Assembly (NCBI RefSeq): GCF_910596095.1
Contig: NC_056550.1
Span: forward strand, 23,928,001-23,992,000
DNA: 64,000 nt
Direction of reading: 5' to 3'
Source of the DNA: Thunnus maccoyii
Lineage: Eukaryota; Chordata; Actinopteri; Scombriformes; Scombridae
In this document: positions 1,287 to 56,900 of the stretch, piece by piece
How the letters are laid out: the number at the start of each line of letters is the position of its first letter
Position numbering within the stretch: position 1 is the stretch's first letter
Made by a program: the position numbers and the translations under genes
The notes under the pieces: model-generated
Told to the model about the DNA's origin: nothing
Seen by the model: only the letters and a program-made list of their open reading frames with translations
Database searches by the model: none

Positions 1287-4200
1287 GTTTCCGCTGTACA
1301 ACCAGCGAAAACTCAGGAAATGGCTCGTCAACATGAAGTGGAAGGACTGGACGCCGACTCGCTTCTCTGTGCTGTGCAGCAATCATTTTGAGGAACAGTA
1401 CATTGACCGAACGGGCAAATCCGTAACGCTTAAAGAAGATGCTGTTCCCACCATATTTTCATCCCCCGACAAGACGCAGAAAAGGAAGGTTTGTATGTAG
1501 TTACTCAGTGTCAGTGGAGCATTTGAAAATAGAAAATGTTTGACAGTAAAATCCCTTTTAATAGTTCAGTGGCTTCATTTAAAAATCCTCTTTATCTGTA
1601 TTTGATTATTCACTAAAATGTCACTTTCTCCCTGATTTAGGCTTCCATCACTCCAAAGAGTAAGAGATATAAGGTGAGAGTACTATATTTATACTTCTGT
1701 TATATACTTTATAGTTTTATTACATTTAGCTGTTCAAATTCTGTGAGTGACTAGTCATTTGTGGTCATTTTAGCAAGTGTTTTGGGCTCAAATAAAGAGT
1801 TTTTTGAGCTGTGACACATGCAAAGCTACTCCAGTGGAGTCCCAGAATAAAAATAAACAGCTGGAAATGAGCTGAAATAATAGATCCTCTTTTAAAAATC
1901 AAGAATATTAAGAAAAGTTCTGTCTTTTTTTTAAGCTGTTCTTCTCTGCAACAACCGTGGAATCAGCATAACTGCTTACAGCCAGAATAAGAACTGTTTC
2001 CTTGTATTCTGAACAGTCAGCTGGTGCTAAAGCCTCACAGACGAATCCAGCTCAGTCTCCAACGACGGCTCCTGCAAGAGCGAAGCGCAGCGTCTCGAAC
2101 AAAGAGCCCAGCCAGACAGAGGAAGAGCCTCCAGGGTATGTTACTTCTAGACGGGGAAACACCAGTCTGTATTTTCCTGTTTTACTACCATTATGTCATT
2201 GGGATTTTTTGTGATCTTCTACTCATATTTCTTTAGTGTAAACAAGCCACTGAACACAAAAACAGTGGAAAAGTTATAATAATGCAGGTGTTTGCTACTA
2301 AATCTCCAGGACATGTTCCAGGTCTATATTTTTTTTATTCCGGGCTCTACTTTTATATCTTTTCATGGTTTACAGTTCAAAAAACTGATGTATCTTATGT
2401 ATTGCATTACATTTGTTCATAATTGAGCTGGTGCCTCATTAATTTCTTGTCATTTTCTTGTTTTATCATCAGAGACAAAGATCCAAAAAAGACTGATAAG
2501 TGGAGGATTATAGTAGATGAAGGGCTGATGAAGATTGAGTCATTTCCACATTTCTTCCATGGAGATTACTGTGTACCTCTGGTAAGCAGCTGCAGACACA
2601 GACTGTCTGTCTGTACTGGAACACTCAGAACTTCATATTATAGAAATTCCCTATTTTTTGTTGCTTGGTTCATCCCTGTAAAACAGATGATTTGATTAGA
2701 TTTAGAGTTCATATACAACAGATGAACTTAAAATACTGTGACAAGACAAGTGTATCATCATACCAGACTTAGATACAATCAGTGTTTCGAAAAATTTGGG
2801 ATCTTATTAGTACAAATGTTAATTTTTTAAATGTATTACGGTCATTAGGCAAATCAAAAGCCTTGTGTTATCGGATATTTACTATCAAATACAGTGATTT
2901 CATGTTTATATTAAATTTGTCAATTTTTCTGTGTAATTTTTCACATTGACCAACAGGATATTCAGTGGGCTCCAGATGGTGATGATAATAATGATAATGT
3001 AAGTAGGCAGCATGTTTTCAAACTGTAATATTTTGTCTTTTATACTTAAACTTCTATATTTTTAGGTGATAAAATCAAACGCTCTTCTGTCCTTTTCACA
3101 GACAGACTGTCAAGATCCTGATAACGTGATAGAAGTAAGCACATTACGACATGATTACTTAAAAGTGTTGCAACAAAGCTACATTCAATGCAAACAAAAG
3201 CAACTTGGATTTTTAATTGGCAGGTGAAAGAGCCGTGGCAGTGGCTCGGTCTGGATGTCAGGGGACCTTTGCCGCAAACACAGAACGGACACAAATACAT
3301 TTTGACTGTGACAGACTACTACTCCAAGTGGGTGGAAGCTGTGCCTATGCAGATGTGCCTCCCTTCTCATGTAGCGAAGCACGTCGCGGACATCATCGCC
3401 CACTTTGGTTACCCGTTCAGAATCCTCTCCAGACTGCCTCATGACATAGTCCACAAAGTGAGTGCACTCATATCATTGTAGAGAATAAAGGGGACATAAC
3501 ATGCACATTTTGAGGTCTATATTTTGAACTTGCATGTTTAATGTAGACATCTGACATTATAACAGGATAGAAATCACAGAAAATCACAAAAAACATGTCA
3601 TGTCCTCTTTAATTCCACCCTCGCTCAGTTGATCCACCAGCTAAGTAAGAACTACAGCTCCCATGAGCCTTAGACAGAATACCAATGGCTCCAATGCTGC
3701 CTTCATGTGATATTGGAATTACTGTAATTATCAGTTTCTGACTTGCGAAAAGCTTTCACATCCAAGTTGTATTTATGACTGGAAACTAAAAGCTCTGATA
3801 TTTCTGACTAGTCGTTTTAAATACAAAAGCTCCTGAAAACCAAACAAAAATAGATTCCTTACATCAGCCAAAGTCTGTCGTTACAGGTTATTAAACCCAA
3901 ATTTAATTGATATAATGCTATTTTGTCAATGCACATTATTTTTTAACCCTCTTAAGACCAACTTTGCAATCATACAATCATCTTAAGTTGTCAGCAAACG
4001 TGAACATTCCCAAGTCTTAAACACAAGAGTCTTTCCTATCTGTGTCATCTGTCAAATATGATGTGAACATGACACAAGACTCATGTTGAATACTAACAAA
4101 ACATTATATATCAGTTAAACTAAACTAGGTGCTCGAATGTTACTATGCAGCAGTAGACCGCAAAGTTTTGAATATTGCCAGAAAACAGCAGGAACATGTT

Positions 4201-6498: not shown

Positions 6499-6837
6499 TT
6501 ACAGTAGTCCAGCCTGTCGGATATTAAAGTGTGCGTTAATCTCTTTTAGTCGCTCATATGGTCGTAATTTGGTTATATGTTTGAGACGATAAAAAGCAGC
6601 TTTAGTGACAAACCCCACATGAGCCTTAAAGTTCAGTTCTGAGTCAAAGATGACACTGAGGTTTCTGGCCTTTGGGCTTGGTGTAATTCCTAGAGAATTT
6701 AGTGTTGTGACCAGTTTCTCTCTCTGAGCCTCAGATATACAGTATTTATATTTCACAACAGGAGAAGGAAGTGCTGCATGGTTCTGATGGCTCATACGAC
6801 AGGTGCTCTTCAGTAGAGCAGGTGAAAACACACACAC
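6499..6837 (-). mobile_element. LINE reverse-transcriptase fragment (L2/CR1-like)
   Basis: The minus-strand frame of 112 residues has the C-terminal signature of fish non-LTR retrotransposon reverse transcriptases: a conserved NLSVIFDSELNFKAHV motif followed by TKAAFYRLKHITKLRP. Only this domain is left; the endonuclease and RT palm are absent, so it is a truncated insertion. It ends next to the long inverted repeat at 6839-7130. Confidence 0.8.
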
Positions 6838-6838
6838 A

Positions 6839-7130
6839 AAAAAACAAAATCCAGGAAGTCTTGCTGAATATTTGTCCTAAAGTGGTGCAGACGACCATGG
6901 AGAAAAACTAAGGCACTCCGTCTTCATCAGGGTCAGGTTCAAACTCTGATGAAGATGGAGTGCCTTAGTTTTCAGAGTTGATACGCGTTGGTCTGTTTGA
7001 TTGACTATCCTCAAAGAATACATTTATTATGTTATTTCACCTAAAGACAGAGTGCCTTAGTTTTTCTCCATGGTTGTCTACACCACTTTAGGACAATTAT
7101 TCAGCAAGACTTCCTGGATTTTGTTTTTGT
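6839..7130. repeat. Long inverted repeat with a nested inner hairpin
   Basis: The 80 bp arm 6839-6918 (containing CCAGGAAGTCTTGCTGAATA and CTAAGGCACTC) is the near-exact reverse complement of 7050-7129, with about three mismatches. Within it, 6904-6930 is also the reverse complement of 6946-6972 with one mismatch and a 15 nt loop, so the left arm can pair with either of two partners. It contains no coding sequence. It may be a fold-back element, a local inverted duplication, or an assembly snap-back. Confidence 0.85.
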
Positions 7131-15449: not shown

Positions 15450-16107
15450 AAAAAAGCCCAAATTTTATGGTTCCAGCTTCTCAAATGTGAATATTTCCTG
15501 GTTTCTTTAGTCTTTTATGACAGTAAGTTGAATATCTTTGGGTTGTGGACAAAACAAGATATTTGAGGATGTCATCTTGGGCTTTAGGAAACACAGATCG
15601 ACATGTTTCACCATTTACTAGATCAGGGCTTTTCAAAGTCTGAGACTGTGAGTGTCCCCTCAGACAAAGCTTGGAAAAAGACGCCCCCTCACCCTCCCTT
15701 TGGTTTACTTAGTATTGCTCAATTCCTGGATTCCTAAGGGATCATGATTATGTTATTTGGTCCCATAGACACTCAACGATTGAGCTAAGATAGCCTGATA
15801 TTGTTGTTTGACATAACTTCAGACTACACTAAATACATAAAAAAAGGTTTGTCTGAAGGCATTTATTAGTTTCTGACTCTGGGAAAGTGGGAAAAACCTT
15901 AAAATTCCCCAAAACTATTTTATCTCTGAACTATTAAACCAAATCACACACATTTAGGTTATTCTACATGATCTCCTTTTGATAACTAATGTAATATTTG
16001 CCCCCCAGTTTGAAAACCTCTGTCCTAGACCAAATGACTATGCGATTAGATGAGAAAATAATTGACAGATTAATCAAAATGAAAATAATTGTTAGTTGCA
16101 GCCCTTA
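15450..16107. repeat. Element A copy 3, split by a hAT-type MITE
   Basis: The element A blocks TTCCAGCTTCTCAAATGTGA and ATGACAGTAAGTTGAATATC run to about 15623, and the missing end (CCAAATGACTA to GTTAGTTGCAGCCCTTA) resumes at 16031. The interruption is the element at 15624-16022. Confidence 0.8.
15624..16022. mobile_element. hAT-type MITE inserted into element A
   Basis: The left end CAGGGCTTTTCAAAGTCTGA and right end CCCCCAGTTTGAAAACCTCTG are hAT-style inverted termini. The flanks TACTAGAT and TCCTAGAC agree at 6 of 8 positions, fitting the 8 bp target duplication of hAT elements. No open frame of note. Confidence 0.75.
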
Positions 16108-16848
16108 AAAATTTGTGACGCAACAATTTGCAATTGTGTTACTTTGCTTATATTGAGATAATTGGTAATAACTGTTAAAATATGTAATTATATTTGACAA
16201 GTCAAAACAATAAATCGTTTGGTCTGTAAAATATCAAAACAAATTCTGAAAAATGGCAAACTGAACACGAGACCCCAGCATGATGTTTTCAAATAGTTCA
16301 GCAAAACCAAAAGATATGAAATATACAGTGATATGAAACAGAGAAAAGCAGCAGATCCTTAAAGTCCCCTTCCACTCAATGTGTTTGTTGTCCAGGATTT
16401 TTAATGAGGGAGAAGGAGTAGATATCATTTTAAGGATTTTAACAAGGTAATTATGTGTTTTTGTGGGGAAAAAAACATATCAGACTCACATTATTGTTCC
16501 AAGTTCTGAGTATTTTTGTATGTCTTAATAAATGCCTGGAGGGGATCTTTAAATATAAGACACTACAACCAGAGACTGCACTTTTTTTGCTTAATAAATG
16601 GTTTTAACGATTAAGCAATTATACAAAAAAACAAAAACAAAGTACAGCTACAGATTAATTTGTTGTCGGTCAAGTAATTGTTTAATCAAGTACTTGTTGA
16701 TTATCTAAGCTCAAAATGGCTGTTTAACAATCTATTTCAGATACAATTTTAACCACTTAGCAAACCTTGACTGAGTTATGTGCTCGCTGTTCCTGAACGT
16801 ATCAGAGAAAACGTTGAACGACAGCACTTGAAGGCAGCAGACGTTAGC

Positions 16849-17102
16849 TGTCTAGATGGTGATCCTAGATTTACGTAACTCTCGCGATATTTGTGCGCGT
16901 TGTTTCTTCATTGTGCGCGTTTTACAAAAATAATCATGTTGTATGATGTGACAGCGCTGTGGTTAAGGTCTGGTTAGGTTTAGACACAAAAAACTCGGTT
17001 AGAGTTCGGGAAAGATCATAATTTTGTTTAAAAAAAAAAAAAAAAATCAATCTCGCGAGAGTTTTCGCGGCGAATCGTGGGTCTGGGGTTACCATCCAGA
17101 CA
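16849..17102. repeat. MITE in the promoter of the HARBI1-like gene
   Basis: The left end TGTCTAGATGGTGATCCTAG and the reverse complement of the right end, TGTCTGGATGGTAACCCCAG, match well. Similarity continues inward to a shared AACTCTCGCGA block at both ends (about 16878 and 17050-17062). It has no coding capacity. It ends 109 bp before the start codon of the HARBI1-like gene. Confidence 0.7.
17051..17060. promoter_or_regulatory. TCTCGCGAGA palindromic promoter motif
   Basis: A perfect TCTCGCGAGA, a motif known from TATA-less vertebrate promoters, 150 bp upstream of the start codon. A degenerate partner TCTCGCGATA lies at 16880-16889. Both lie inside the MITE ends at 16849-17102. Confidence 0.65.
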
Positions 17103-17211
17103 CTACTCAGCTACATTAGCATTTTGCGGCTGCGCCGCGACACACTAATGACTCCTGTCGTAACTTAGACAAAAACAAAGGTAGGTACTAGTTGATCCAC
17201 CAACAGCACAC

Positions 17212-20102
17212 ATGGACATCAATGAGTGTGTTTTGTCGGCGGGCCGAGCCGTGCTGGACATGGTGGAGCGAGAGTGGCAGCCTCTGTCTCCGGCCGAGCT
17301 GGAGCAGCGGTTGGACCAGGCGGTGGAGGAGATCCTGGAGGCTGACCTGATAACAAAACTCAAAACTCAGCCTCCTCCTCCTCCTCCTCCACCACCACCA
17401 CCACCTGCTGCTATATACGTCCAGTTACTGCAGGATCAAGCTAATGTGCAGCCGCAAGTGTTACACACGACCACATCCAGTCCTGCAGAGGAAGAGACAG
17501 CAGAGAGCCGAGAACAGCTGGAGACTGTAGACACAGCTGTAGTCAAGGTAATAAACTACCTGACAAACAAATCAACACATCCGAGACCGTAAAATAAGTT
17601 TATACATCTTTAAAAGGGGGTAAGAGCATTAAGCCACTGTTCATGAAGGGTTTGAACGTTGCAACCAATGACTTTATTAATGGTCAGTAGATGATGTTGA
17701 TGCTTAATTGATCTGTTGTGCACCATTGTTAAAGGAGTTCACAATCTTTCAAGTGTGTCTTAAAACAACAGCAAGGAAAACATGTTTAAACGTTCATTTG
17801 GGCTCCTGACTGTTGTTTTAAGGCAGACTTCAAAAACTGTGAACTCGTCCTTTAATCCAGTAACAACTTTTGGGTTACAAAAAATTCCTCCAGCAGGATT
17901 TTTGGTCCTTTAATTCATCTAATGGATCATTTTACCTCACTGGAATAACCTGTGGAGATCAGAGCTGCAACAATTGGATTTGAACAAGTCGATTAATGGA
18001 TCAATAGTCAATAGAAAATTAATCAGCAACTATTTTGATAATACTGAATAATCCTTTTAGTAATTTTTTAACAGAAAATGCCAAACATTGTCTGCTTTTA
18101 GCTTCTCAAATGTGATGATTTAATGTTTTTCTTTGTCACACATGATAGTAAACTTATCGTTGGGTTTTGGGTTGTTATTCGGACAAAATAAGATATTTAA
18201 AGATGTAACCTTTTAACGGTCATTTCACTATTTTACAACATTTTATAGACAGAATGACTAATCAATTATGAAAATAATCATTAGTTGCAGCACTAATGGA
18301 GATTGTTGGTCAACAATTTAATGTTTTACTGCCAACTTGGTGGATTTTTTTACAACTTGGCAACCCAAATGTTTTATTTTACTTGTTTGCAGTGCACATA
18401 AACACTTCCAGTGAGTGTTTTTCTCTCTACTGTTTACGTCTTGTATTTACATGATTGTTCTGAGTGAAACTACACTGTAAACAAGAGATTGCACCACCTC
18501 AATTAATCTGTTCAAGCAGCCATGTTGCTGTTTTTGGGCTGCAAGGCTGCAACTAACTATTATTTTATTTTCTTTATTGATCGAGTAGTCTGTGTATCTA
18601 TAAAATGTCAGAAAATTGTGAAAAACCACAATCCAGTGTGACGTCTTCTGTCCAACCAACACCTCAAAACCCAAAGATATTCAATTTATAATAATATAAA
18701 AGAGAGAAAAATAGTATATCCTCACATTTAAGAAGCTGGAAACAGGGAATGTTTTGCCATTTTTGCTTGAAAAGTGACTCTGCCGATAAATTAATTACCT
18801 AAATAGTTGCAGGATAATTTTCTGATTGACTAATTGATAAATAGTTTCACCCCTATATGATCGTACTGAACTTTTTATGGATTCTTTCCAGCTTTGGGCC
18901 CAGATTTCACTGTGCTTGTGATGTTTATGCTCAATTTTACCTTAAATACCATTTAAACCTACTGACTGACTGATGTTTGGAAACTGTAAAATAATTTTCT
19001 CCTTTTTTTTTCCATTCACATTCATTCATCAGCACATCGCCGATCTGCTTCAAAGCTCCACATCTAGAGCTCGAATGGCTGGACGAGCTCGCTTATCTCT
19101 GTCTCACACCGTCCTGCTGTCCCTCACGCTGCTCTCCGAGCGCGTCAGCTACCGCTGCGTGTCCCGCCGCTTCCGCCTGGAGAAAGGAAACATCCACAGG
19201 ATCTTCTTCTCTTTCTGCGAGCGCGTCAACATGCTGCAGGAGAGGCTCATCAGATGGCCGGACGGTGGGTTGACGTCAGTGTTGCTTGTGGTTTTGTTGA
19301 TATCAGTGCAAAAACAGAGCTGAAAATGATAATAGTGGGTTTATTTCATCTCTATTCTCCAGGCAGAGACGCTGTAGAGGCTCTGCTCCCACTTTCCAGT
19401 CAGCTGGGAAAAGAGAGGGAGCAGGAAGAAGAGGAGCAAAGTATCCCTCAGGTCCTGGGAGTGCTGGGATTCACACGGATCCCAATCCGCTTGCCTATAG
19501 GGAAACATGACGTGGAGAGCGCAGTGCCTGAGGTGAAGAGGATGAAGAGGGAGGCCCATCCCGACTCCTGGCTCAACCTTGAGCTCGTATGCGACTGTAA
19601 GGGCCGTTTCCTCCACTGCAGGATCAGTAAAGGATCAGACGTGGACAGAGGCAGCGCAGTGAGAAACAAACTCAAACAGCATCCTGAGCTGATGCCGCCC
19701 GGCTCCTGCCTGGTGGCCAGAGCCGGCTACCCGCTCACCGCTCACATTTTAACCCCATACACCACAGGAAGTCACGGACCAAGAGAGGAGCTCTTTAACA
19801 AGACGCTGGAGGCACATTTTCACATTCTGGATCAGGCCGTCGCCACGCTGAGAGCCAGATTTCAGAGACTCAGGTATCTGGATATCGGGAACTACGATCG
19901 AGCCAGAGCTGTCGTGCTGACCGCCTGCGTGTTGCACAACGTGTTTTTGGACATGGGAGAAGTGGTTCAAGGAGAGGTTGAGAAAGAGGAAGTCATGAGC
20001 CAAGAGGGAGAGGAGGAGCAGGAGGAGGATGACGAGGGTGTACGCAGACGTGAAGACATCGCGGACTTTCTGTTTAAACGCTTGGATTCTGAAAGCACAT
20101 GA
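17212..20102 (+). CDS. HARBI1-like domesticated Harbinger transposase
   Basis: Three exons, 17212-17547, 19033-19264 and 19363-20102 (TGA), give 435 residues; the start has an ACACATGG context. Residues 1-112 are a helical acidic N-terminus with a run of about 12 prolines near residue 54. Exon 2 encodes a helix-turn-helix-like region. Exon 3 has the Harbinger DDE nuclease fold: D267 in LVCDCKGRF, GSDVDRG at 281, AGYPL at 310-314, LRARFQRLR at 352-360 and TACVLHN near 376. In active HARBI1-type proteins the second acid sits in GDSGYPL; here that position is R309. The third acid, usually E in VIERAF, is D346. A glutamate-rich segment follows before the C-terminus. Introns, a long intact frame and altered catalytic residues point to a host gene kept for DNA or protein binding, not transposition. 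An ATTAAA signal lies at 20147. The Myb-like partner-type gene is 2.8 kb downstream, convergent. Orthology to a named gene was not established. Confidence 0.88.
17733..17856. repeat. Element B, internally deleted copy
   Basis: Ends AAAGGAGTTCACAATCTTTC and AACTGTGAACTCGTCCTTTA form inverted repeats around TAAAACAACAG and CTGACTGTTGTTTTA. The central part found in the 9766 copy is missing. In intron 1 of the HARBI1-like gene. Confidence 0.75.
17961..18295. repeat. Element A, copy 4
   Basis: It begins AGAGCTGCAACAATTGGATT and ends CATTAGTTGCAGCACTAATG, with the family's AGCTTCTCAAATGTGATGAT block inside. In intron 1 of the HARBI1-like gene. Confidence 0.8.
18543..18855. repeat. Element A, copy 5 (reverse orientation)
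   Basis: It begins AAGGCTGCAACTAACTATTA, contains AACCCAAAGATATTCAATTT, and fades at the right end near GATTGACTAATTGATAAATA. In intron 1 of the HARBI1-like gene. Confidence 0.75.
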
Positions 20103-20454
20103 TGTGTGATGATGTCTGTTGTCGGAGAGAATGAACATTTCTGTAAATTAAAGGTTTATTTTAACAGGATCTCTAACTGTCTGAGTGTTTCTGCACATAA
20201 ACATCACAGCAATCAGATAACAGGGACACATTTGTTATTAAAGCATTTATATTATGTGATATAACGGTAATTCTGGTTCATTTCTGTGGTTAATTTACCA
20301 TCATGGGGATAATAATTCATGATAGGATTTTTTAGTTAATTGGAGTGGACATAGAGTTTACGTGTTTATCTTTCACAGCTGCAAACAGTTTCATTTCCAC
20401 TTTTAAAATGTATTTGAAAAAGTAAAATCCAAATGTAACCGAACCAAATAGACT

Positions 20455-21421
20455 TTAAAGGTACAATATACGACATTCAGCCCCACTAGATGTCGCATTA
20501 TAGCACCAGTATCTCAGACTGAAACAAATGTGTGTCGTTTAGTTAATAAAGTTGTAAAAAAAAAGAGTTTTATCTGAACAGACAGCTCATGAAACTCAGA
20601 TCAAACCGTCAAACTAGGCAGCGCTGATCAAATATGGATCAAGATTCTGGTACTGCATTGCCTATTTCTCCCTTCAAATGTTTTCAGAAACATATTTTAT
20701 TGTACCGTTTAGCTATAATCTGATAAAGTTTGTGACCCAGCCACCATGTTGAAAACGGCCACGGGGAAGACAGCGAGGGACTCACATACACTAACATGCC
20801 ATAACCAGCTATCAAAACAAAGAGCAGAGAGACTTGGATTACAACCACTGACTGTATATAAATATGGACGATGTGTCTCCACTTTCTACCACTATGAAAA
20901 AGTGCAGCAGAGTCGGACAGCGGGATGACGGTCTGCAGGACACGCCCCCTCAGCCGTCCAGCTGTCTGACCGAGGTTTGAGAGTGGCTGTCCCAGCTGTC
21001 AATCATGATGTTCCACCTCCTTTTTTATATCATCAAACAACTAATTAAAAACAAACTTATCAGAAAAATGAGCACTCGGACAAACATCAGCATGATAAGA
21101 ATGATCTAAAATGACAGAAATCATCTTTGGGAAAAATTTATTTAACGTGTATTTTGATTTTTTTAGTTTGGCTCATGTCCCATCTGCTAACACGACACTT
21201 ATGACCTATACTGCAACCAGCCACCAGGGGGCGATCGAGATGTTTTGGCATCACCTTTGGGTAGCTGTCATGACGTCCATGTTTATATACAATCAATCAT
21301 TACAACACACTCAGAGGGAGTGTGACTTCGTTCTCTGCTCAGGTCGCCAGTACGTCACTATATCATTACATAGCAAATAACTGACTTCTAGTGGGATGAA
21401 TGTTGTATATTGAACCTTTAA
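20455..21421. repeat. Element D with TTTAAAGG ends, hosting a nested MITE
   Basis: The left end AAGGTACAATATACGACATT with CCCCACTAGA is mirrored by the right end TCTAGTGGGATGAATGTTGT and ATTGAACCTTT. The middle (20849-21296) is a separate element. It lies in the interval between the two Harbinger-related genes, which otherwise holds only repeats. Confidence 0.75.
20849..21296. repeat. Element C nested in element D, with CTCF-like motif
   Basis: Ends CTGACTGTATATAAATATGG and CCATGTTTATATACAATCA are inverted. Inside, CCACCAGGGGGCG at 21221-21233 is a near-perfect CTCF core. A second copy is at 37220-37640. Confidence 0.7.
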
Positions 21422-21775
21422 GATAGATTAGTTTAGTTAAATAGGTTTTTACTACATGAAAAATTACTCAGAATTACATGAAAAATTCTGACATAATCAG
21501 ACTTACACAATGGAAAAAAAACATCAATGTTGTTACTTTCTGGAGGAAATCTGGGACATTTTTCCAAATAAGGATAAATATCAACGACTGGTCAGAATAT
21601 TATATTTGTTTGTGCTCAATTTGATCACTTATAAGTAATACCACAAAACTCTCTAAACACAATTATAATCAATACTAATGTTGCTGTTATTTTTTGCAAT
21701 AATCACACTAGTAATGAGTTGCACATTCATTACGTTAATAGACTTTAATTATGATATACTGATATCAACACTGGT

Positions 21776-21873
21776 AAACTATGAAAGTCAAAAACTTCCA
21801 CTTCCATTAAGGGGCCAAATATTTTTTCCGAAGGGCCAGATTTGGCCCGCGGGCCGCTATTTGCCTACCGCTG
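21776..21873. mobile_element. hAT-type element end (copy 2)
   Basis: Matches 7606-7700 over GGGGCCAAATATTTTT, GGGCCAGATTTGGCCC and a terminal TTTGCCTACCGCTG. Only the terminal part is recognisable. Confidence 0.65.
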
Positions 21874-22225
21874 GCATAAATGTTTCTAATATTCTGTCCA
21901 CCACCAAGTATGTAAATAGAGCTCAGCTGGACAAACATTTACAAAAGTAGTGTTTATTGCAAAGCAGTTGTTTTTTTAGAATACATTACATGAAGTTGTT
22001 CATACTGTCTGATAACATAGTGTATATTAATAATGAATACAGCTATTGATACCTGCATTCATGTATTTTTTCTGATCATTTTCATACAAAACATGCTCCA
22101 CTCTTGCATAGACTGACATTTAATATCAATAACTGGTACAGTGATGGAAGGATGCTTGTATTAATATTATATATGAGTAATATTTTAGTATTCTTTTTAC
22201 TCTCTGATCATAATTAACTTTTCTA

Positions 22226-22575
22226 GAGCTGCAACAATTAGTCGATTCATCGATTAGTCGATTGTTAGAAAATGAATCATCAACTTTTTATGATCGAATA
22301 ATCGTTTTTTAAGCAAATATGGCAAAAATGTGTTGGTTTCAGCTTCTCAGATGTGATGATGTAATGTTTATCTTTGTTATTAATGATAGTAAACTGGATA
22401 TTTTTAGGTTTTTTACTGTTAATTGGACAAAAAAGGACATTTGAAGATGTCACCTTTGACTCTGGGGTGTTATAAGGATAATTTTCACTATTTTCTGACA
22501 TTTTATAGACAAAATAATTAATCAACAAAATAATTGGCAGATAATTGATAATGAAAATAATTATTATCAATTAAT
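22226..22575. repeat. Element A, copy 6
   Basis: It begins AGAGCTGCAACAATTAGTCG with ATTCATCGATTAGTCGATTG, and carries the family's CTTCTCAGATGTGATGATGT block. The right end is eroded around AATTATTATCAATTAATT. Confidence 0.75.
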
Positions 22576-22890
22576 TTTGGTACAAAAATAAGTGATGCAC
22601 TGCGAGATAAAGAGAAAAGGCCAAACTATTAAGCGATATGTGGACTGTTTTCAGTAAACACAAGTGCTGCCAAGGTATGATATGAGAGTCTCTGTCCTAT
22701 GTGTCTTATTTTCATTAATTATGACATTTCTCTACAGAGTTCAGACTGGCCAAACTATTCTAAAAACCGTAACAATAAAAATACGCCAACATGACCGAAG
22801 AGCCTTCATTTAAAAATATGCTCAAGCAGTGTTCTTCGTGCAGTATCGTGAGAGTTTTTGGTAAGTTCAGATCCGCTTCACGTCTCTTGT

Positions 22891-24716
22891 CTAATGTCCA
22901 TCTTTGGGCATCTGCGTGCTGTTCTTCTGAGCCAGGCTGGAGATGGCCTGGGCCAGGTTGTTGATGGCCTCTATCTTCCTCTCCTCCAGAGCTTTCTGCT
23001 GGGCCCACATGTTCATCTTCCTCTCCTGCAGCTCCATGTACAGCTGCAGGACGTCCTGCGGAGGCCTGGAGGAGCAGGGAGCTGCTGTCGCGGGAGGCGT
23101 AGGGAGGATAGGGGTGAATCTTTTGCTGGCTATGGCCTTGCCCACTCTCGTCCCGCTGAGCTTAGCCTGACGCTGAGCTTCGATCTCCTCCCTGCTCTTG
23201 CCCAGGACCTCGTGCATGGCCTTGAAGAACTCCCAGTGGACACTGGCCGCCCCCAGCCTCTTGGCCCTCTCTGCGTTCTTCCTGTACGTGGCCAGCATGT
23301 TTCTCCACTTGAGGTCACACTCGTAGGCCTTCACAGTGACATCGGTGACGTCTGACTCCCTCAGTTTGGCGTTCACCTTCACTGCCACCATCTCCCAAAG
23401 TTTCTTTTTCTTGCACACCGGCTGGTCAAAAGCCTGATCCATCTCAAGCCGCGTGTTAACAAGGTGCCACGTGGCCTGAAGTGTCCATATAAATTCTAGA
23501 GAAGAAAACAAAGGTGGATCATGTCATCGGCAGTGATGGAAGACGTATTCAGATCCTTTACTTAAGTAAAAGTACCAATACAGCAATGTAAAAACACTCC
23601 ATTATAAGTCCTGCATGAAAAATCGTACTACAGTAAAAGTACTTAAGTATTATGAGCTTGACGTAGTTCAAATATTGCAGTAAAAGTAGTGGTTTGGTCC
23701 CTCTGACTGATATATTATTATATATGACATCATTAGATTATTAATAGTGAAGCATCAGTGTTAGAGCAGCATGTTACTGTTGTAGCTGCTGGAGGTGGAG
23801 CTAGTTTCAACTACTTTATGTACAGTTAACTAGTTTAGTCCAGTGGTTCCCAACCTAGGGGTGGGGCCCCTGCAAAGAGTCACCAGATAAATCTGAGGGG
23901 ATGTGAGATGATTAATGGGAGAGGAAAGAAGAAAAAAAAAAAGTTCTGATATACAAATCTGTTTTCAGTTTTTGGACTTTTTCTCAAATCTTTGATTTTT
24001 GCTGAAATATTGGATCATTTGAACATTTATTGAAATGAAACCATGTGAGAAGTTTAGAGGGAAAAATCACTATTTGTTGGAGCTGTTAACAACTCATAGA
24101 CATGTGAAATGTGACCTCGACCACACACTGCTTTTTGTAAGACGTCAAAAGCCAAAAAGGGTTGGAAACCACTGGTTTCATCTTTAACAATGTGTTGTAT
24201 TTTAAAAGCTTGTTATATTATCCATTGTGTCAAATCTTCATCTGAAAAGTAACTAAAGCTGTCAAATAAATATAGTGGAGTAGAAAGTACAACATTTCTC
24301 TCTGAAATGTAGTGGCGTGGAAGTATAAAGTAGCATAAAACTGTCCTTAAGTGCAGTACTTGAGTAAATGTACTTAGTTACTTTCAACCACTGGTAATTG
24401 GTTGATAAATTTATGACTTTGCACTGAACCTAATATGTTTTTTTTCCCCAAGCTTACTGATTTTATAATTTGACATGTCCTGTCTAATGAAACAGCTTTT
24501 TGAAGCTACCAGATAAACATATAGTAATGAATTCATTGGAGGCAGAGCCTGCGCACTCATCAGGCCCTCCTCGCATCATGCGATGACTGGATGAAATCTA
24601 ACTTCAGGCTACGACTACTGACCTGTTTTTGTTTTATCTGCGTCCACACTGGACACCACCGTCTCTTTTCCTTCCACTTCAGCGCTTTGTATCACAATTG
24701 TTTCGATCACCTCCAT
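22891..24716 (-). CDS. Myb/SANT-like (MADF-type) DNA-binding protein
   Basis: Two exons on the minus strand: 24716-24623 (94 nt, starts MEVIETIVIQSAEVEGKETV) and 23495-22891 (605 nt, stop at 22893-22891), joined in phase 1 to 232 residues. Residues about 32-130 form a Myb/SANT-like or MADF domain with spaced tryptophans (EFIWTLQATW, KKLWEMVAVKV, CDLKWRNMLATYRKN, VHWEFFKAMHEVLG). A Pro/Ala/Ser linker follows, then a C-terminal amphipathic, coiled-coil-like segment (LQLYMELQERKMNMWAQQKA). Such proteins (MSANTD, NAIF1, Harbinger Myb-like) bind DNA, and NAIF1-type members carry HARBI1 into the nucleus. It is convergent with the HARBI1-like gene and divergent from armc5. The intron 23496-24622 holds two nested hAT-type MITEs. 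The antisense frame over exon 2 is a shadow. I do not assign a named orthologue. Confidence 0.85.
23531..24393. mobile_element. hAT-type MITE, outer element
   Basis: It starts CAGTGATGGAAGACGTATTC and ends TTACTTTCAACCACTG, with the fish-typical CTTTACTTAAGTAAAAGTAC. The flanks GTCATCGG and GTAATTGG agree at 6 of 8 positions, fitting an 8 bp target duplication. In the intron of the Myb/SANT-like gene. Confidence 0.8.
23841..24174. mobile_element. hAT-type MITE, inner element
   Basis: It starts CAGTGGTTCCCAACCTAGGG and ends GGGTTGGAAACCACTG, inverted termini. The flanks GTTTAGTC and GTTTCATC agree at 6 of 8 positions. It sits inside the 23531-24393 element and so inserted later. Confidence 0.8.
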
Positions 24717-25672
24717 GCTGCTAAACCACCACCATTACAGTTAAAGTTGTTTTTTTATTAGCGGCGTATCTACCGCGGAATTTAACAACCTCTCAGAGGC
24801 ACCGATGCGCTTTCTCGCATCGAGTAAAACGATGAAAATAGCAACGTCACTCGACAGATAGGGAATTGTAGTCCGTTTTGGTTAACACAAACGGGTTTTT
24901 GAGTAGTCTGCCGTTCCAAATGAACTACAATCCCTTAACCGCTGCGACCTGCTTAACACAAGCCGCACGTTCTCATCGCCACGGGGAATGTAGTTTTTTA
25001 AAGAGAGGAAACGCAGCTGAGGCGCTGATAGGCAGCGACGTTCTGAACTACACTTCCCAACATATATCTATCCGACCCTCCTCTTCACTCCCTGCTCCCT
25101 CCCTCGACCGCCCCTGTTTTGTTGTTTGGCTAAAGATGGCGTTAGCGGCTAACACAGGCGATTGCTTTTTGTTTCACAAAAATTATTCGGCCAGTGGTTT
25201 CAAAACATTGATCAAATAGAGCTTTAATTCGTCATTTAATGTGCAAACATGTGTTATATTGAGCAAGTACACGTCCACTACGCAGAATAACGCTTGGTCG
25301 GCCTTCTCACGATGTAGGCCTGTTTTGTAAGGGAGTGGACCGAAGCTGGTGGGACTCCATCTCCCGTCAGCAACTGCGGCGTCAGGTGGTACAACTTTAT
25401 TTTTCCATGCTGGTATCTGTAGTTTTCTGACCACACAAGTGTTATTTGTGGGGAAACTTTTGTTTAAAAAAATATGAGTGGACACAGTAAGATCACATTT
25501 CACCAGCTGAGTTATTAGTTTGTTAATTGAAGGAGAAAAGGACATGTTGTTTGATTTCTCAGTATTTCACTGGAAGCCTCCAGGGATGCTCCACAGTGTG
25601 TGTTATATTTCTGTTTACTGAGAGGAGGAACATTAAGGTTAGTGAACCCGTGGTGTTCCAAGCAGAGGCACC
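24717..25672. promoter_or_regulatory. Divergent promoter between the Myb/SANT-like gene and armc5
   Basis: The 956 bp separate two head-to-head start codons. It holds GGGAATTGTAGT (24861-24872), ACTACAATCCC (24924-24934), GGGAATGTAGT (24984-24994) and ACTACACTTCCCA (25047-25059), all ZNF143/THAP11-type sites or one-base-shorter variants. Weaker matches lie near 25354 and 25412. AAGATGGCG at 25133-25141 is a YY1-type site often found just past a start site. No TATA box is seen. Confidence 0.65.
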
Positions 25673-28600
25673 ATGGCTGCATCACCTGTGCAAGGTGACT
25701 GGAAACAATCTCGGGCACACGTCAAGGAAGGGCACCCATCATCACCCGAGTCCTCTTTGACCTGGTGCTTGACTCACCTCTCCAAACCCCGATCAGGGGC
25801 TGAACATGGTAAGGCAGACTCAGGCGGCGGCAGAGAAATGGACAAGAGGTCCAGAGTCTCTCAGTGGCGAGCCCTGGTTGCTATCCGGACTCAGCACATC
25901 AAGGGTGACAAGGCTGGCATCGCCCGATTCAGAACTCGAGGCGGTCTCCGGCCCCTGTTGGACCTACTCGGGCACCCGGAGTGCTCCAGGAAAACCCTGG
26001 ACCTGGCTCTCAGCATCCTGGCCAACTGCTGCACTGAGCTGGAGACGCGTATAGAGGTGAGATTAAAGAAATAATTAAGAAGGTATTGAAAGCTGATATG
26101 ATTAAATCTATAAATTTGCTCACATTTAAAACGTCTTCCGCTACAGGTTCGTAAGCTTGATGGAATAAATGTTGTAGGTAAGTGAAATCATTCACCCGTG
26201 TAACTTTTTAATGACGAAAGGCAGGATTTGCAGTCATTTTCATCAGATCATGTAATCCTGAAAGATAATTCTTGACTTTCTCAGTGGACATCCTGAAAAG
26301 AAATGTGGCCCTGGAGACCGTCCAGAACCGAGCAGCCCGAGCTTTGGGAAACTTGGCCATGGATCCAGAGAGCTCAGCACTCATCCACTCTGCCGGTAAG
26401 TCAGAGGAGAGAAATGTTAGTGTGTCTCACTGCAGCGTCTTTAGTTGGCAGTTTTTCCTGCATTCAGAATGAGATGCAGTGTGAATGCTACTCGGGCAGC
26501 AGAATTATACAAGATGGTCAATTTATAGTAACTTATAATTTTGCTTTTCTTTTGGGTAGATAGAAACATTGACATTTCAGGTTTACGCTTCCAAGAGCTT
26601 ATGTGCAGAGTGAACATCCTAAATATTAAAATGTTTAAATTTATAAAATGACTGGAAATATAGAATATGGCTTTGTAGTAGACATTCATACTGGGGAAAC
26701 TACTGTTTCATTTTTATTATTGAGATTAAGGCTGCAACTAACGATTATTTTCACTATCAATTAATCTGTTGTTTATTCTCTCAATTAATCGATTAGTTGT
26801 TTGGTCCATAAAATATCAGAAAATGGTGAAAAATGTCGATCACTGTTCCCCAAACGCCAAGGTGACGTCTCTAAATGTCTTGTTTTGAATCAGAGAATTT
26901 TTTTTTACTTAAAAAAAGACTCAAATTGATTAATCAATCATCAAAATAATTGGCAACTTCTCAATTAATTTGCTAATTGTTGCGGCTCTAGTTGGACATC
27001 CTGTCGGCCAAGTCGTGCGTCAACCGCCACTCACTCCATACGTTTCCTGTCTGTGTCTTCACAGTCAAACTATATAATAAAGGCAAAAATGCCTAAAAAA
27101 AATTGTAATTCATTATCAGTGGAGAGAAGGAACATATGTGCAGAATCTTCAATAAGGAGAGGTCAGTTAGAAGTGTATAACAATATTTATTGATATTAGC
27201 GACATAAAGATTTTTGGCGATTAGACTCCAACGATGATGAAGCATCGTCATAAAGTGTAGGCCCACATGAAGATAGGAGACAGGATATGATCACCCGGAG
27301 TCTAGACGCTGCTGCTGTTGGTGGTGGAGCAGAGCCAGCAGGTGGTTAATGGAAAAACCTTTGGACGAGTCTGACTGGATACCACGGAGGTCATGGTGGT
27401 GGTGATGGGGAGGAGGAGGGTTGCTTAATAATAGGTCAGAGTGGCAGCGATATTTAAAGAGCGGCATCTAGAGAGTGATTAGCATGAGGAATGCAGGCAG
27501 ATGTATCATTAGTCAGGTGTGGTGACGTCGGTAATGTGAACGAAGCGGTTTTTTGACAGCGTGGGAAAGCGGCTGTGATGGAGAGAAACAGAATAGGAGG
27601 AAATGGCAGACGTTCAGTTGGAAACGTCTGTTCACGTTACCATTAATCAACACCTGCCAAATGTTTTTGTCCTCTGTGGATTATTAATACGTCTCTTTTC
27701 TTTCACACAGGTGGCGTTCCTCTTCTCCTCCTCTGCGTGTCTCTCTCCTCCGCCCCGTCCTCCCCCACTGCTGCTCCACCCAAAGACCCCTGTCCTAAAC
27801 TGGAGTGCGCTCAGTCGGCGGCCCGAGCCCTCCTCTACCTCTCCGACACGCCCTCGAACCGCCTGTCGCTGCTCACCCAGGGGACCTTATCTGCCCTCGC
27901 CCCTCTCATCGCTCCGGAATACCCTCAGGGGCTGAGACGGGCGGCGCTCAGGACCCTCCACGAGCTGACCCGGAGCTGCGGTGTCGAATGCGCCAGGGAG
28001 GTGTCGCGTTCCGGCGTCCTGGCGCAGCTCGGTGTCATGGCGTCGGGGGAGTCGGGTAAACCTTTCGAAGAGCTGGCACTGAAAACCCTGGCCAACATGT
28101 GCTCCCAAGGCTGCTTGCGCCCTCTCGTGGGGTCGCTCGGGGTCATTCAGAAATTCACCGAGGAGGTCAAGAGGGACCCGCTGAAGTCTGGAGTCTTCCT
28201 CAAGGCGCTGTGCTTGTGCTGCAAGGAAGCAGTCAACCGGGCTAAGGTGAAGGAGAGCGGCGGACTGGAGGCGTTAATTGGCTTTCTGGCCGCCCATCAG
28301 AGTCACCCTCTTTCCCGGCTGGCCATTCTGGCCTGCGTAGACTTTGTTTTTGATGAAACCGCCATGGAGCAGTTGCAAGAGTTGGGGCTGGTCCCTCTGC
28401 TTGTCGCCCGACTAGTCGAGCTCACCAGAGGGGAGGAACCACCTCCTGAGAAGATGGATGTGAGCATCACCTCCAACATGTCTCCCACTGAGCTCCTGCC
28501 TTCAACGTGTTTTGACTCTTTTGACTTTCCCGCTCCTGAAGGCTACAAGAAGGAGGAAGCTGGTCGGGAGCAAGGTCTCTGCTCATCAAGCTTTTTAAGT

Positions 28601-31600
28601 CTCAGGTATGTAAAATGACATGAACGGTTATGAATGACTGTATCATTCTATGATTCTTTTTTAAACCAGATGTTTGTTGTGGTTTCTTCAGGTCCTGGTT
28701 GGTGTCTGAGGGATTGATCTCTTCTGAGGGGGATCTTCTGGATTCCTCGGGGAGTGTCGACGGGGAATGGGCGAGTCTTCAGATCCCGCCGTCTTCATCC
28801 CCTCACACCTCCTCCCCGAACCCTGATTCTCATTCCTCTCTTAAAAACTGTTCCCCTTCCAACCCTGTTACCTCCTCTGCTTCTAAAAAAGTAGCTCAGC
28901 CCTCCTCTGCGTCATCTCCAGGGAAAGTCACCGATCCGCCTCCTTCTAGTCCTTCTACTGCACTCGCATCGCAAAACCAGCCTGGTTCCTCCGCCGTCTC
29001 TTCTCCCACTAAAACACCAGTTTCCCCATCAAAGTTCACATCCCCCCACAGACGGAGGCAGCGGGCTCACTCAGCAGCTTGTTTGACAAAAGTCACTCTT
29101 GATACGCCTCCCTCGGTGCCCCGTACGATGGCGTACCACCACCCTTACCACCCCGAACCCTGGACGCCAGAGTCTCCCATCCTGCTGCTGCTGTCACGTT
29201 TCTCCCACGCCACGGACCCGAGCGCCGCTCTGGTCAACTCAGGCATCATGTCCGGCTTGCTCTGCTACCTCACCCAGCACCAGGACCCCAGCAGCAGGTG
29301 CTTCCGTATGCTTTGCCGGCTGAGCTGCAACCCCAACTGTTTGCAGGCGTTGGTCCGAACCGGCTCCGTGGCGCTGATTCGCCACCATCTCTGCCAGAGA
29401 GAGCGAGGATCAGAGGGAGAGAAGAGGCAGACGGACCGAGTGAAAGCCAAAATTAAACAACTCGGTAAGAGAAAGAAGATGTTAGTGAGGGAGGCATGTT
29501 GATCAGTAACCTGCAACACTTTGGTTCACGATAACTTTTGACAACCTAAGAAATTTCAACAGAACCAACAGTTACTCGTTGCCTTATTAAATTTATAGAT
29601 AATGCAAATTTGTGAGTGAGTAAATCATTTAATGTAATTTTTTTGCCAAGAATAAGTATCAGGAAGTAGTTTAAATAATTAAATACAATGTTTTTAATCA
29701 TTTTTCATTATCGATTAATCTGCAGATTATTTTCTAGATTAATTGTTTTGTGTATAAAATGTCCAAAAATTGTGAAAAATGCCCACAGTGACGCCCTCAA
29801 ATGTCTTGTTTTGTCTAATCAACAATCAATCCAAAATCCCCAAATCCAAACATATCATACATATGACACATAAAAGTTTCAATCATGCTGAGCTACCAGT
29901 AAATGTTTGGTATTTTTCCCTTAAAAAGTGACTAAAGCGATTAATCAATTATCATAGTTGCCCGTTAATTTTCCGTCGACTAATCGATCAATCAGCTAAT
30001 CACTGCAGCTCTATTCATTCTATACAGGAGCAGTTTATAATTGTGCACTGACTGTCTGTGTAGGTTTGGCTCTTCTCAATAATCTGCGTGTCCAGTGTGA
30101 GTCTGGATTCGGCTCTGGAGTTCTCGCCCATGTGATGCTGTCGGGCTCCGAATCAGACAAGATGAACTGTGCGCTGTCGCTGCCGTTAATCAGCAGGTGA
30201 GTAGCAGGACTGTTTTCAGAATTTAACGACTGAAAAGCACAGGAATGTCGTAAAATGTACTTTTTTTTTGTCCACAGTTAATTTTAAAGGATCTTAAAGA
30301 CACTGGGCATCCTGATAAAAACAGTTTTAATTTACTGGTTTTACAAAGGAACTAAATATTCTCAGATTTAATTTGATGATCAAGAACAATCACAGCAACA
30401 TGAGCTTTACGAAGCCTCTTTTTTTCTCCAACAGCAACAAGCTCCTGTTGAAGAAACTCCTCCTGGACAGTGGCGGTCTCCTCTTGGCTCTTCAGCCCCT
30501 CGGTTGCGATGACGACGACATGGATGAAGACCATCCCGCTGAAGGTGGAAGGTTCCTCTCTGATTGGTTTAATTCACCTCATTCAGGTCTGACCTCTCAG
30601 CTCCACTCGCTGTACTTTTCTTTCCTGATCGGATGCTTGTCCGCCCTGATGAGCGGCGTCAAAGTGGAGCTCGACAGAAGACATCTCAACCCAGTTAAAC
30701 CACAGACAGTCAGTAAAAGTGACAGCGCTTCACCGCCTCCCTCTAAAAAGCCTCGCCTAGCTGACATCTGTCCTTACGGTTTGTCGAACTTTGACCTCCT
30801 CTTGCTGCTGGACGACGGGACCGAGGTCCCAGCCAACAGGGAGGCTGTGGCCGGGGCGGAGGGCACAGACGGGGTCGGCTCTGAGTACTTCAGGGCTCTG
30901 CTGAGAGGCGGATTTGGAGAGGCTCAGGGTAACGTGGAAGAAGCCATCCATATTAAAGATGTCAGCACAGGTATGCTGCTCCCGGTGCTACATTACCTGC
31001 ATGGATGTCGCCTCAGGAAGGACACAGAAACAACAAAGGCGGAGGATAAAGGAGAGACGGGAGGACACTGTCAGATTTTGGACACATTGGTCCTTGAGGG
31101 ACTGGATTTCTGCAAAAAGGAGACAGAGGAGCACTCGATAGAAAACCTGGACTTCCAGAAAACACCTCTAGGCGAGATGATGACCGGAGCGTGCAGGTTC
31201 TTGGTGACTGAGCTGCAGAGAGAGTTGGAGGATCTCTGCGTGTCTCTCCTCCTGTCCTGCTCCACCAAGGCCGCTAGTCGAGCTGCATCAGCTCCCGCAG
31301 AGGACAACGCCGAGAAGGCCGCATCTAAAATGGACCAAGAATGCCTGGAGTCTGCCGAGGAGAACCTGGCCAATCGAACATCTGAGCTGGAGTTGACTGG
31401 CTTCGAGGCGCAAACGGAAAATCTACAAGGACAGACGAAGAAACCGAACAGTTTCCTACATCAAACAGACAGTAAAAAAAGCTCTTCTGCTGTTCAGAAG
31501 ACCAGCAGGGAGCTCAATCCAGCTTCAGCCGTCGCCCCGGTTTCTAGACCGAGCTGTGCGTCAGGCGTGGACAAATCCCTCGCTCAAGAAGAGCTGAAGG

Positions 31601-53900: not shown

Positions 53901-56900
53901 TATAAGTGCTTGTCAGATGTTAAGATTGGCTCTATGAACTTTGATCTTTGTTTTCTTGTCAGGATATGGGACTGTACCCGGCATGGGCCAACCCGCAGCC
54001 CGATCAGGTCAGTGATGAGTCTTGTCTTAACTTTTTATTCCATTCAGCTATGATTTGTATGCGGGAGGGTTATTTTCTTATGTCTCATCACTCTTAACAT
54101 GACTGATAGCATCACACTTATATGCTGTCAGTCATAAACATCAGGTTCATCACAGAAGAGAGTTTGATAATCACATTGTTTAATCCATAAGGTGACTGGA
54201 TAGTTGTGTAAAACTATATGTCTTTGATGTAACCAGTCATCCTGTTTCACTGAACTGAGCCTGGAGGAGATCATGTGTTTGGTTGTGTGTGTCCGCAGCT
54301 ATTCTTGCACACTACTGGACCCATCACCCTAACATTTTTAGTGCACATTTATGACTGTATGCTCAAGGACCTCTCATGGTTGCAGTGACTCACAGTTGTT
54401 GAAAAACCTATTTTATAACATGTTTTATGCCGCCATTGACTGCTGACTCTGGCAATATGCTACGCTAAAAACAAGTCTGTTGCAGGCCACATTTTTGGCC
54501 TTTGTCGTGGCTCAAAAACTGACATCCACAGAAAAGTTTGGTCTCATCTTGAACTGGAGCATCTGCAGATTAATTCCATGGCTGATATGTTATGATCCAC
54601 TGAAGTTAGGCACGATACGAGATGTATAATATCCCCACTTGTCTTAGCTTTGCCGCCATCTTGACTGTAAGGGAGCCGGGAGGGACAAGTGAGTGAAAGT
54701 CAACCAATGGGTGACGAAACGGTGGCTACGTCCATATTTTTTTACAGTCTATGGGTACGACATGCAACACAAGTCCCCCGGCTAGGAATAAAACCGTGGA
54801 TATTACGGTTATGTGGTGTGCGCCTGAACTATCAGGCCACCAGGGTGCCATACATCCGTTGTCGTCTTTGTTCTGTGTTGTATTTGTCTGTAACCTCTGT
54901 GAATTCGGTGTCTTCCTCACTGATATTGGGTTCATGTTGGTTTTCATGCGCATGACGTGACGTCTATCTAATATTAACCATCAGCTCGGCTCGGCTCTAT
55001 TTTGTTTGCATAGGATAGATTCCCATGTTTGACTGTGTATCAGTGTTTCATCTGTGTTTCATGGTACATTAGTTGCTCAGCTCTTATTGCCACACTCAGT
55101 CTGTGAGTTGATCAGAGTTAATGAGAGTTAATGTGTGTGGATTACTCAGTGCTGTGGTTTACAAGAGCTGAAGGAGCTACTGGAAAATAGGATATGCAGC
55201 CTAAATACACATTAACAACTTGATTATAATGGGATTACGTAGAATTTTGCTCACGTATTTGATTTATTAGGCCGCAAAAACAAATCACTCGCACACACTC
55301 CGGTTTGTTTGGGCCATTACATTTTTAAAATCTACCATCATATGCTGGTCACAGTTCTGGTTCACTGTAATTGGTTTATAGTATGCATGCAAACGTTAAA
55401 TAAAAATCTGATGAGTGAAACTGCATTTTAAAAGTGGAATTATTTAAATCTAAATATTTTTCAGTTTTAAAACTGTTTTTTTTTGTATGTTTCTGCTCCC
55501 ATGTCTCATCAGTGTTTTACTAAACTTTATCTATCGGTTGTTCTTTGTCACATGCCGATGCTGTCTGAGTCAGGCGTTGCGTTATGCCATTGCAAGATCA
55601 GCAACGTCTTGTTGTCATGGCATAATTTGTGTTTTGATGCTCTGACTCAGTGTAGTATTAATGTATTTCCCTCCACTGTGTTGCATCAATTGTGTGTTTT
55701 CTCTTTGTTGTGTCATTCCCCAATTATGGTGATAATTCTGTCCTTTCAAGCTGGGCTAATTTCATACCATAATGGATTTTGTGTTGACTTTGATCGGTCT
55801 TGAAGTACTTCTCTTTGAGTACTGCTTACTCTAAGTACGATGTGTTATATTGCAATCAATGCTCTGATATACACATCGGTAACTTTAAATTTAAATACAG
55901 AACTCTAAAATATGTTTGCCACTGGCCACTACAGTGTGCTGTTGACCCTTAAAGAAACACCACCAAGAAGTCATGACTGCATAATGATATTTCTCTGCCA
56001 GGTGTGTCTGCAGCAGACTTGGGCCAGGCTGTTCAAGATCTGAAGACAGCAAAAAGCAGAACACTTGGTTCCTTGTTCCTTGGACCTGAAATGCCCGACA
56101 TGAGGAGAAGCAGTATAATCGGTCACACTGCTCCTGAATTACAGAAAGAAACTGGCTTCAGACCTGATGTACTGTCACCTGGAACACAGGTCAAAAGCCT
56201 TGATCCACTAGTAAAGTCACCGAGTCTTGGACCTACGACATTTCTTGATAAGATAAGTAGAAGTCTTGGTCGGCCCGTTCCACCAGCACGAGGAGGAGAA
56301 ATTTATGGGCTTACATTCTCACAAAGAAAGAGCACCGCAAGCCATGGAGCCACAATGGCCACTGGAGGTGCACGACAGCAACACCCTGTTGATGAAGACA
56401 ACATCAGAAATCTGGGTTCCTCCAGAGACTACGATTCATCTATTCAAAAAAGTCAGCAAGCCAGAAACTATGGATCCACTAGAGATTTGTCAGATGCATC
56501 AGAAATAGAAAAATACCGTGAGCTGTTGGCTTCAGAAGCACAGAGGGCTCAAGGTTTAGCGCCTCAGCCTCGTATTGGTAAAGACGGCAAACATCTCGGT
56601 CTTGCAACTCCTCAAGCACAAGGAGAGGAAACATATCGACTTTCACAAAGTCAAGATACCAGAACCTATATATTCTCTCTTCCTCCACCGAGTCAGAGAT
56701 CCAGAATATATTTATCTGCTGGAGCAGACGGGCAGGGTATTGAAAACCTTGAGCTTGCAGGTAAATACCCAAACAGCCTTAAAATCAGTGGGACTGTAGT
56801 TGCAGAAAACCATAATCAGGCTTCTGCAAATCCTCAAATGCAAAGAGTGGAGAGCGATGTACCGGTGATCCCAGGTGCAAGTGGAACCAAAAATTTAGCT

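Follow-up and report, generated by a model that had tools for sequence, protein, structure and literature searches.

Two-gene Harbinger domestications and the tuna locus

HARBI1 and NAIF1, two host genes of vertebrates that are thought to have been domesticated jointly, are unlinked in human. We describe here two adjoining genes that encode the same two kinds of protein as HARBI1 and NAIF1 (PMC9710019), gene A (transposase-like) and gene B (Myb-like), in a stretch of 64,000 nucleotides from the fish Thunnus maccoyii (GCF_910596095.1, contig NC_056550.1, positions 23,928,001 to 23,992,000; the window). Probably a single ancient Harbinger insertion beside ARMC5 supplied both, A as its transposase gene and B as its Myb-like gene, and both were domesticated by the host in place.

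Among insects, Drosophila, Anopheles and Lepidoptera are known to have co-domesticated PIF/Harbinger pairs (DPLG7-DPM7, APLG1-APM1, APLG2-APM2 and LPLG2-LPM2; PMC9710019). These insect pairs resemble A and B in that a transposase gene adjoins a Myb/MADF gene, both in single copy and with no terminal inverted repeats (TIRs) found, and it is stated that the intergenic distance may grow and that the orientation varies (PMC9710019). Synteny, purifying selection and expression have been shown for the insect pairs (PMC9710019), whereas A and B are known here from the sequence of one genome. The tuna pair belongs to another host group, and its gene A has lost the catalytic triad.

Within the vertebrates the comparison is with HARBI1-NAIF1, the known pair. 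The best HARBI1 candidate of the tuna genome is probably not A but another locus (L023), which carries HARBI1 motifs. B matches the family PF13837 and not PF13873. The physical interaction of HARBI1 with NAIF1 is required for nuclear localisation of HARBI1 (PMC9710019). A Myb/MADF-derived nuclear protein of Harbinger origin, ADF-1L, is described in the miiuy croaker as a recruiter of KAT2B that controls both its own gene and one of its neighbours; in the sections of that source available, no transposase-derived partner is mentioned for it, in contrast to the A/B pair (PMC11893794). The Harbinger transposons of teleosts have two genes, for a transposase and a Myb-like protein, with globally congruent histories; those elements have TIRs, many copies and the DDE motif, and A and B share with them the two-gene content (PMC9179366).

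Loss of the catalytic residues has precedents in Arabidopsis. ALP1, a working host protein, reads DGA and has thus lost two of the three DDE residues (PMC4671723), and the triad has been lost in HDP1 too (PMC7282668). In ALP1-ALP2 and HDP1-HDP2 a DDE-depleted, nuclease-derived partner and a Myb-derived partner occur together in a chromatin complex (PMC4671723, PMC7282668), and A is likewise devoid of the triad. ALP2 does not adjoin a nuclease gene and has lost the tryptophans (PMC4671723, PMC7282668), whereas B keeps the tryptophans and adjoins A.

Among the titles and visible abstract openings that searches of an open-licence library listed, none describes a linked vertebrate pair, which does not prove its absence, and Harbinger terms gave no hit in PMC7786948. 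The kind of pair to which A and B would belong is already known from insects; it gains interest here because the host is a vertebrate, the linkage has been kept and the catalytic site is lost.

Structure of gene A and loss of its catalytic triad

Gene A lies on the + strand, from an ATG at 17212 to a stop at 20102. Its three exons, separated by GT-AG introns, encode 435 residues with one, terminal stop, and an in-frame stop is found 30 bases upstream of the ATG. The features of the gene are:

17212..17547, + strand: gene A exon 1, N-terminus with a poly-proline run; open frame, GT donor at 17548
19033..19264, + strand: gene A exon 2, AG acceptor and GT donor; HTH_Tnp_4-like stretch at about 19090-19209
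19363..20102, + strand: gene A exon 3, DDE_Tnp_4 match at about 19569-19940; stop codon
20147..20152, + strand: ATTAAA, a pattern match that may be the poly(A) signal of gene A

The DDE_Tnp_4 profile (PF13359) matches residues 259-382 of A (E 5.6e-11; 42.8 bits, cut-off 24.8), and the HTH_Tnp_4 profile (PF13613) stays below its cut-off (13.8 bits against 27, E 0.044). A comparison with solved structures gave five matches at E <= 5, with no transposase among them. An earlier reading of the bare sequence (the original prediction) had called A a HARBI1-like gene of 435 residues; this is correct at the level of the family, DDE_Tnp_4, and does not extend to HARBI1 itself, for which L023 is the probable candidate.

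In an alignment with 12 transposase pieces from the same genome, read by eye and with residue numbers assigned by hand, the catalytic places, which hold D, D and E in the relatives of A, are taken in A itself by G225, R309 and D346. The first D is present in all of the other rows that cover the position (4/4). The second is found in eight of nine, the ninth row (with E) being the end of a probable HARBI1 fragment, the next piece of which has the D. Seven of eight rows have the E at the third place, and the exception, with D, is again the probable HARBI1 (L023). The D-D-E triad of a working transposase is therefore absent from A, in which two of the acids are lost and the third, E, is now D. 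Since all three catalytic places have changed, it is unlikely that A still cuts DNA by the usual chemistry.

Structure of gene B and its Myb domain

Gene B, on the - strand, starts at 24716 and ends at 22891; its two exons, with a GT-AG intron, encode 232 residues. An in-frame stop lies 21 bases upstream of its start.

24623..24716, - strand: gene B exon 1, start codon, GT donor, open frame of 31 codons
22891..23495, - strand: gene B exon 2, Myb/SANT trihelix at about 23206-23487; stop codon at 22893-22891

Several alternative splice pairs likewise leave B open. Two points favour the model of 232 residues, namely the pyrimidine tract of its acceptor and the completion of the Myb domain. The match to Myb_DNA-bind_4 (PF13837) indeed improves from E 8.1e-9, for B from residue 50 on, to E 3.3e-11 for the full protein, which covers profile positions 4-89 of 89 (43.9 bits against a cut-off of 27). 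The Myb/SANT-like gene of 232 residues that had been proposed for this place is thereby borne out, with its whole domain; in the genome profile search the same trihelix appears as C18:23951206-23951487. The MADF profile is matched as well, just over its cut-off, and among solved structures B matches the GT-1 trihelix (E 0.01 and 0.016).

The tryptophans W35, W65 and W95 are retained in B, one in each helix if the helices are placed as expected. Three tryptophans are needed for the DNA binding of Harbinger Myb proteins, as stated for plant proteins in PMC7282668. From its sequence, B has most likely remained able to bind a DNA site. The C-terminal stretch resembles a coiled coil when judged by eye. 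No poly(A) signal for B was found in the 500 bases searched. A short basic motif of the nuclear-localisation type has one match in A and one in B, and is uninformative.

The arrangement of the pair

Genes A and B are convergent, with 2.8 kb between their ends (20102 to 22891) and the two start codons, at 17212 and 24716, on the outside. The original prediction of a convergent pair 2.8 kb apart, with both genes intact and both containing introns, agrees with the open spliced frames and GT-AG introns described above. Between the genes lies an inserted element:

20455..21425 (about 0.97 kb), no strand assigned: insertion of an inverted-repeat element that is present in many copies; imperfect terminal inverted repeat, ends set by eye

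The first 101 bases of this element match, besides themselves, 39 other scored places in the genome (40 of 307 candidates scored), which are 84-90% identical.

The layout was compared with that of other transposase and Myb loci by pairing the matches to DDE_Tnp_4 with those to three Myb-type families across the 782-Mb genome. The comparison holds 150 of the 154 DDE_Tnp_4 matches (150 of 558 candidates scored), A itself being outside the 150, and 224 Myb-type matches, namely 77 of PF13837 (148 of 148 scored), 31 of PF10545 (150 of 212) and 116 of PF13873 (150 of 413), so that the counts are lower bounds. Among the matches listed, every one of the 20 pairs within 5 kb is convergent. At 5-50 kb there are 13 pairs, of which four are convergent, four divergent and five tandem, as chance predicts. 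When PF13873 is left aside, 11 of 11 listed pairs within 5 kb are convergent and none occur further out, up to 50 kb. The 20 pairs are not independent of each other, since some are copies of one family (e.g. those at C18:7.85 and 7.89 Mb). The gap from domain to domain is 0.5-3.5 kb in the 20 pairs and 3.3 kb between A and B, about 0.97 kb of which is the inserted repeat.

Because the close pairs are all convergent, A and B appear to retain the arrangement of a Harbinger element, which the 0.97-kb repeat has widened; this locus has the adjacency in the element layout that is looked for in co-domesticated PIF/Harbinger pairs. Of all the evidence for an origin of A and B in one insertion, the close convergent layout is the strongest.

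Elsewhere in the genome, clusters of Myb/SANT-like domains were observed at C23:12.71-13.00 Mb and C7:9.10 Mb, with no listed transposase within 50 kb; these are perhaps expanded host families.

Relatives of A and B, and the alternative of chance neighbours

A different origin of the arrangement would be that A and B are chance neighbours, domesticated from different Harbinger insertions near ARMC5. We regard this as unlikely, although it is the best placed of the alternatives, and the search for relatives of the two proteins supplied the points in its favour and against a single insertion. A tree of DDE domains was made from 17 hand-picked rows of this genome, with near copies, broken ones (among them L024, L030 and L083-L085) and most outgroup-like loci left out. 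In this tree A falls within the Harbinger transposases but has no supported sister, and its branch measures 2.26 changes per column. A grouping of A with HARBI1 (L023; p-AU 0.363), with L087 (0.328), with L029/L081/L082 (0.384), with L015/L018 (0.298) or with the outgroup (0.38) is not rejected, and the best tree, which puts A with L010/L020/L025/L026/L039, gives that clade a support of just 53/13. An assignment of A to an element lineage from trees was dropped, because five of the six clades are not rejected and the sixth is poorly supported. The locus L023 (C24:10796996; C24:10795496-10798966), which looks like the true HARBI1 of this fish by motifs of human HARBI1, shares 23.6% identity with A over 127 columns.

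In the genome search the best other match of A is at C5:9.586 Mb (E 1.6e-4, 28% identity; 97 of 184 candidates scored). The relatives of A are nearly equal, however, and tblastn ranks L010/L038 a little above the C5 locus; inspection by eye of roughly 3 kb downstream of L010 revealed no Myb frame. The element at L086, which also scores close to A, has a Myb piece that belongs to PF13873 and thus differs in type from that of B. For B there is no other genome match at E <= 0.01, and its 129-residue Myb part finds at E <= 10, besides itself, only C18:9.12 Mb (0.076), the best other match of B in that search, and C1:15.36 Mb (4.9). In tblastn B matches L072, a Myb locus with no listed transposase near (0.004), better than the flank of the C5 locus (0.014). 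Neither of these two best matches of B, by tblastn and by genome search, has a listed transposase beside it.

When B was compared by phmmer with 498 translated frames (its own excluded), the best match was the convergent-side flank of the same C5:9.586 Mb locus that is the best other relative of A in the genome search. The flank encodes WHFFEAMHRAL where B has WEFFKAMHEVL. The match is weak (E 0.057), and reaches E 2.5e-4 only if the flank, chosen after being seen, is searched alone. A match of B beside the relative of A at C5 is therefore suggestive, no more. No relatives of A were found in genome_contigs, and none of A or B in viral_contigs, bacterial and viral collections in which a fish gene is hardly to be expected.

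For the whole listed set 0.42 random pairs within 5 kb are expected. Any one locus has a Myb-type locus within 5 kb by chance with a probability of 0.0028, which drops to about 0.0007 when convergent orientation is included; moreover, the layout of A and B is the same as that of all 20 close pairs. Co-domestication from one insertion is thus much likelier than chance neighbours (about 0.07%). Joint domestication with the linkage kept, as it had originally been put forward, gains from the 20/20 convergent close pairs and from the lack of a close second copy, of TIRs among the inverted repeats inspected and of the triad; it is not helped by the trees, which give A no lineage, nor by the marginal matches of B.

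Marks of host genes and of mobile elements

Both genes have a CpG-rich start, in a window with an overall CpG observed/expected ratio of 0.48:

16751..17250, no strand assigned: probable promoter of gene A, a CpG-rich stretch at its start; CpG observed/expected 1.24 and 1.18
24751..25000, no strand assigned: CpG-rich stretch between gene B and ARMC5, probable shared promoter; CpG observed/expected 1.55

The GC content at third codon positions (GC3) amounts to 0.63 for A and 0.73 for B, compared with 0.67 in the adjoining ARMC5 exon, and the first intron of A and the intergenic DNA have a GC content of 0.33-0.35. In 13 other transposase or Myb pieces of the same genome GC3 is 0.40-0.54. Two of these 13 are probable HARBI1 gene pieces, with 0.43 and 0.51, which tells against our interpretation: because probable HARBI1 pieces occur without high GC3, this feature does not generally indicate domestication. 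When neutral change at 0.2 substitutions per site was simulated, the frame of A was still open in 0 of 300 runs and that of B in 3 of 300. The two spliced, domain-bearing frames, together with this simulation, confirm that the frames of A and B are more than chance.

Hallmarks of mobility have been lost and both genes are single: neither has a close second copy, the triad of A is gone and no TIR is seen. Of the 86 inverted-repeat pairs in 15500-26500 the 25 longest were inspected, and none flanks both genes; a short decayed TIR may escape this search. No element ends emerged beside which a 3-bp target site duplication would be sought. Two long-span inverted pairs (I7 and I16) were considered as TIRs and rejected, because one arm lies inside the intron of B. 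By their looks, with CpG-rich starts, host-like GC3 and intact frames, A and B would both be host genes.

Two further explanations are to be judged on these marks. One of the two genes might be a functional host gene and the other a passenger whose frame was kept by chance. The shortness of the frame of B (232 residues) would allow this, but the CpG-rich start and high GC3 are common to both genes, and even B stayed open in just those few simulated runs; the explanation is improbable, slightly more so than that of chance neighbours. Least likely is a single old, decaying Harbinger copy that mimics a gene pair, which would account for the element-like layout and the high divergence of A, but not for two frames intact across spliced exons, the absence of a close second genome copy, the early breakage of the frame of A under neutral decay, the CpG-rich starts and host-like GC3, or the lack of flanking inverted repeats among the pairs inspected.

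Neighbouring sequences

Matches to the ARMC5 family were found on the + strand in the frames 25646-26071 and 27647-28615, so that B stands head to head with ARMC5. As the two face each other across a CpG-rich stretch, a promoter shared by B and ARMC5 (24716-25646) is suggested. A regulatory link of the pair to the ARMC5 promoter is possible, though speculative.

Further away in the window, the open frame at 3155-3481 has a weak match to an integrase core (rve, E 0.003, below the cut-off) and is probably a retroelement fragment. A frame of 125 residues at 6499-6876 (- strand) resembles the tail of a LINE reverse transcriptase. An open frame of 374 residues at 55977-57101 has no Pfam match at E <= 0.1.

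A possible two-gene host system and its significance

Returning to domestication of both genes from one insertion, we infer a common insertion, selection for function, an interaction between A and B, and a role in the nucleus. We are inclined to think, with somewhat less assurance than for the shared origin itself, that a vertebrate here keeps both halves of a Harbinger element adjacent and convergent as a two-gene host system, made up of a trihelix protein and a non-cutting transposase that serves as adaptor. By analogy with HARBI1-NAIF1, HDP1-HDP2 and ALP1-ALP2, the C-terminus of B would hold the N-terminal part of A. In such a complex B may bring A into the nucleus and onto DNA, where A could act as an adaptor for chromatin or transcription factors, again by analogy.

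The convergence of all 20 listed close pairs offers a simple way of finding further pairs of this kind. If our interpretation is true, A and B would be a second joint domestication of Harbinger genes in vertebrates, besides HARBI1-NAIF1, and a linked one. Co-domestication, if true, would make the locus a natural case of a two-protein machine that was taken over whole. Since the pair is linked and its catalytic site dead, it would allow a test, in fish, of whether the halves of Harbinger are domesticated as a complex, and the same pair would show what role a non-cutting transposase can have for its host.

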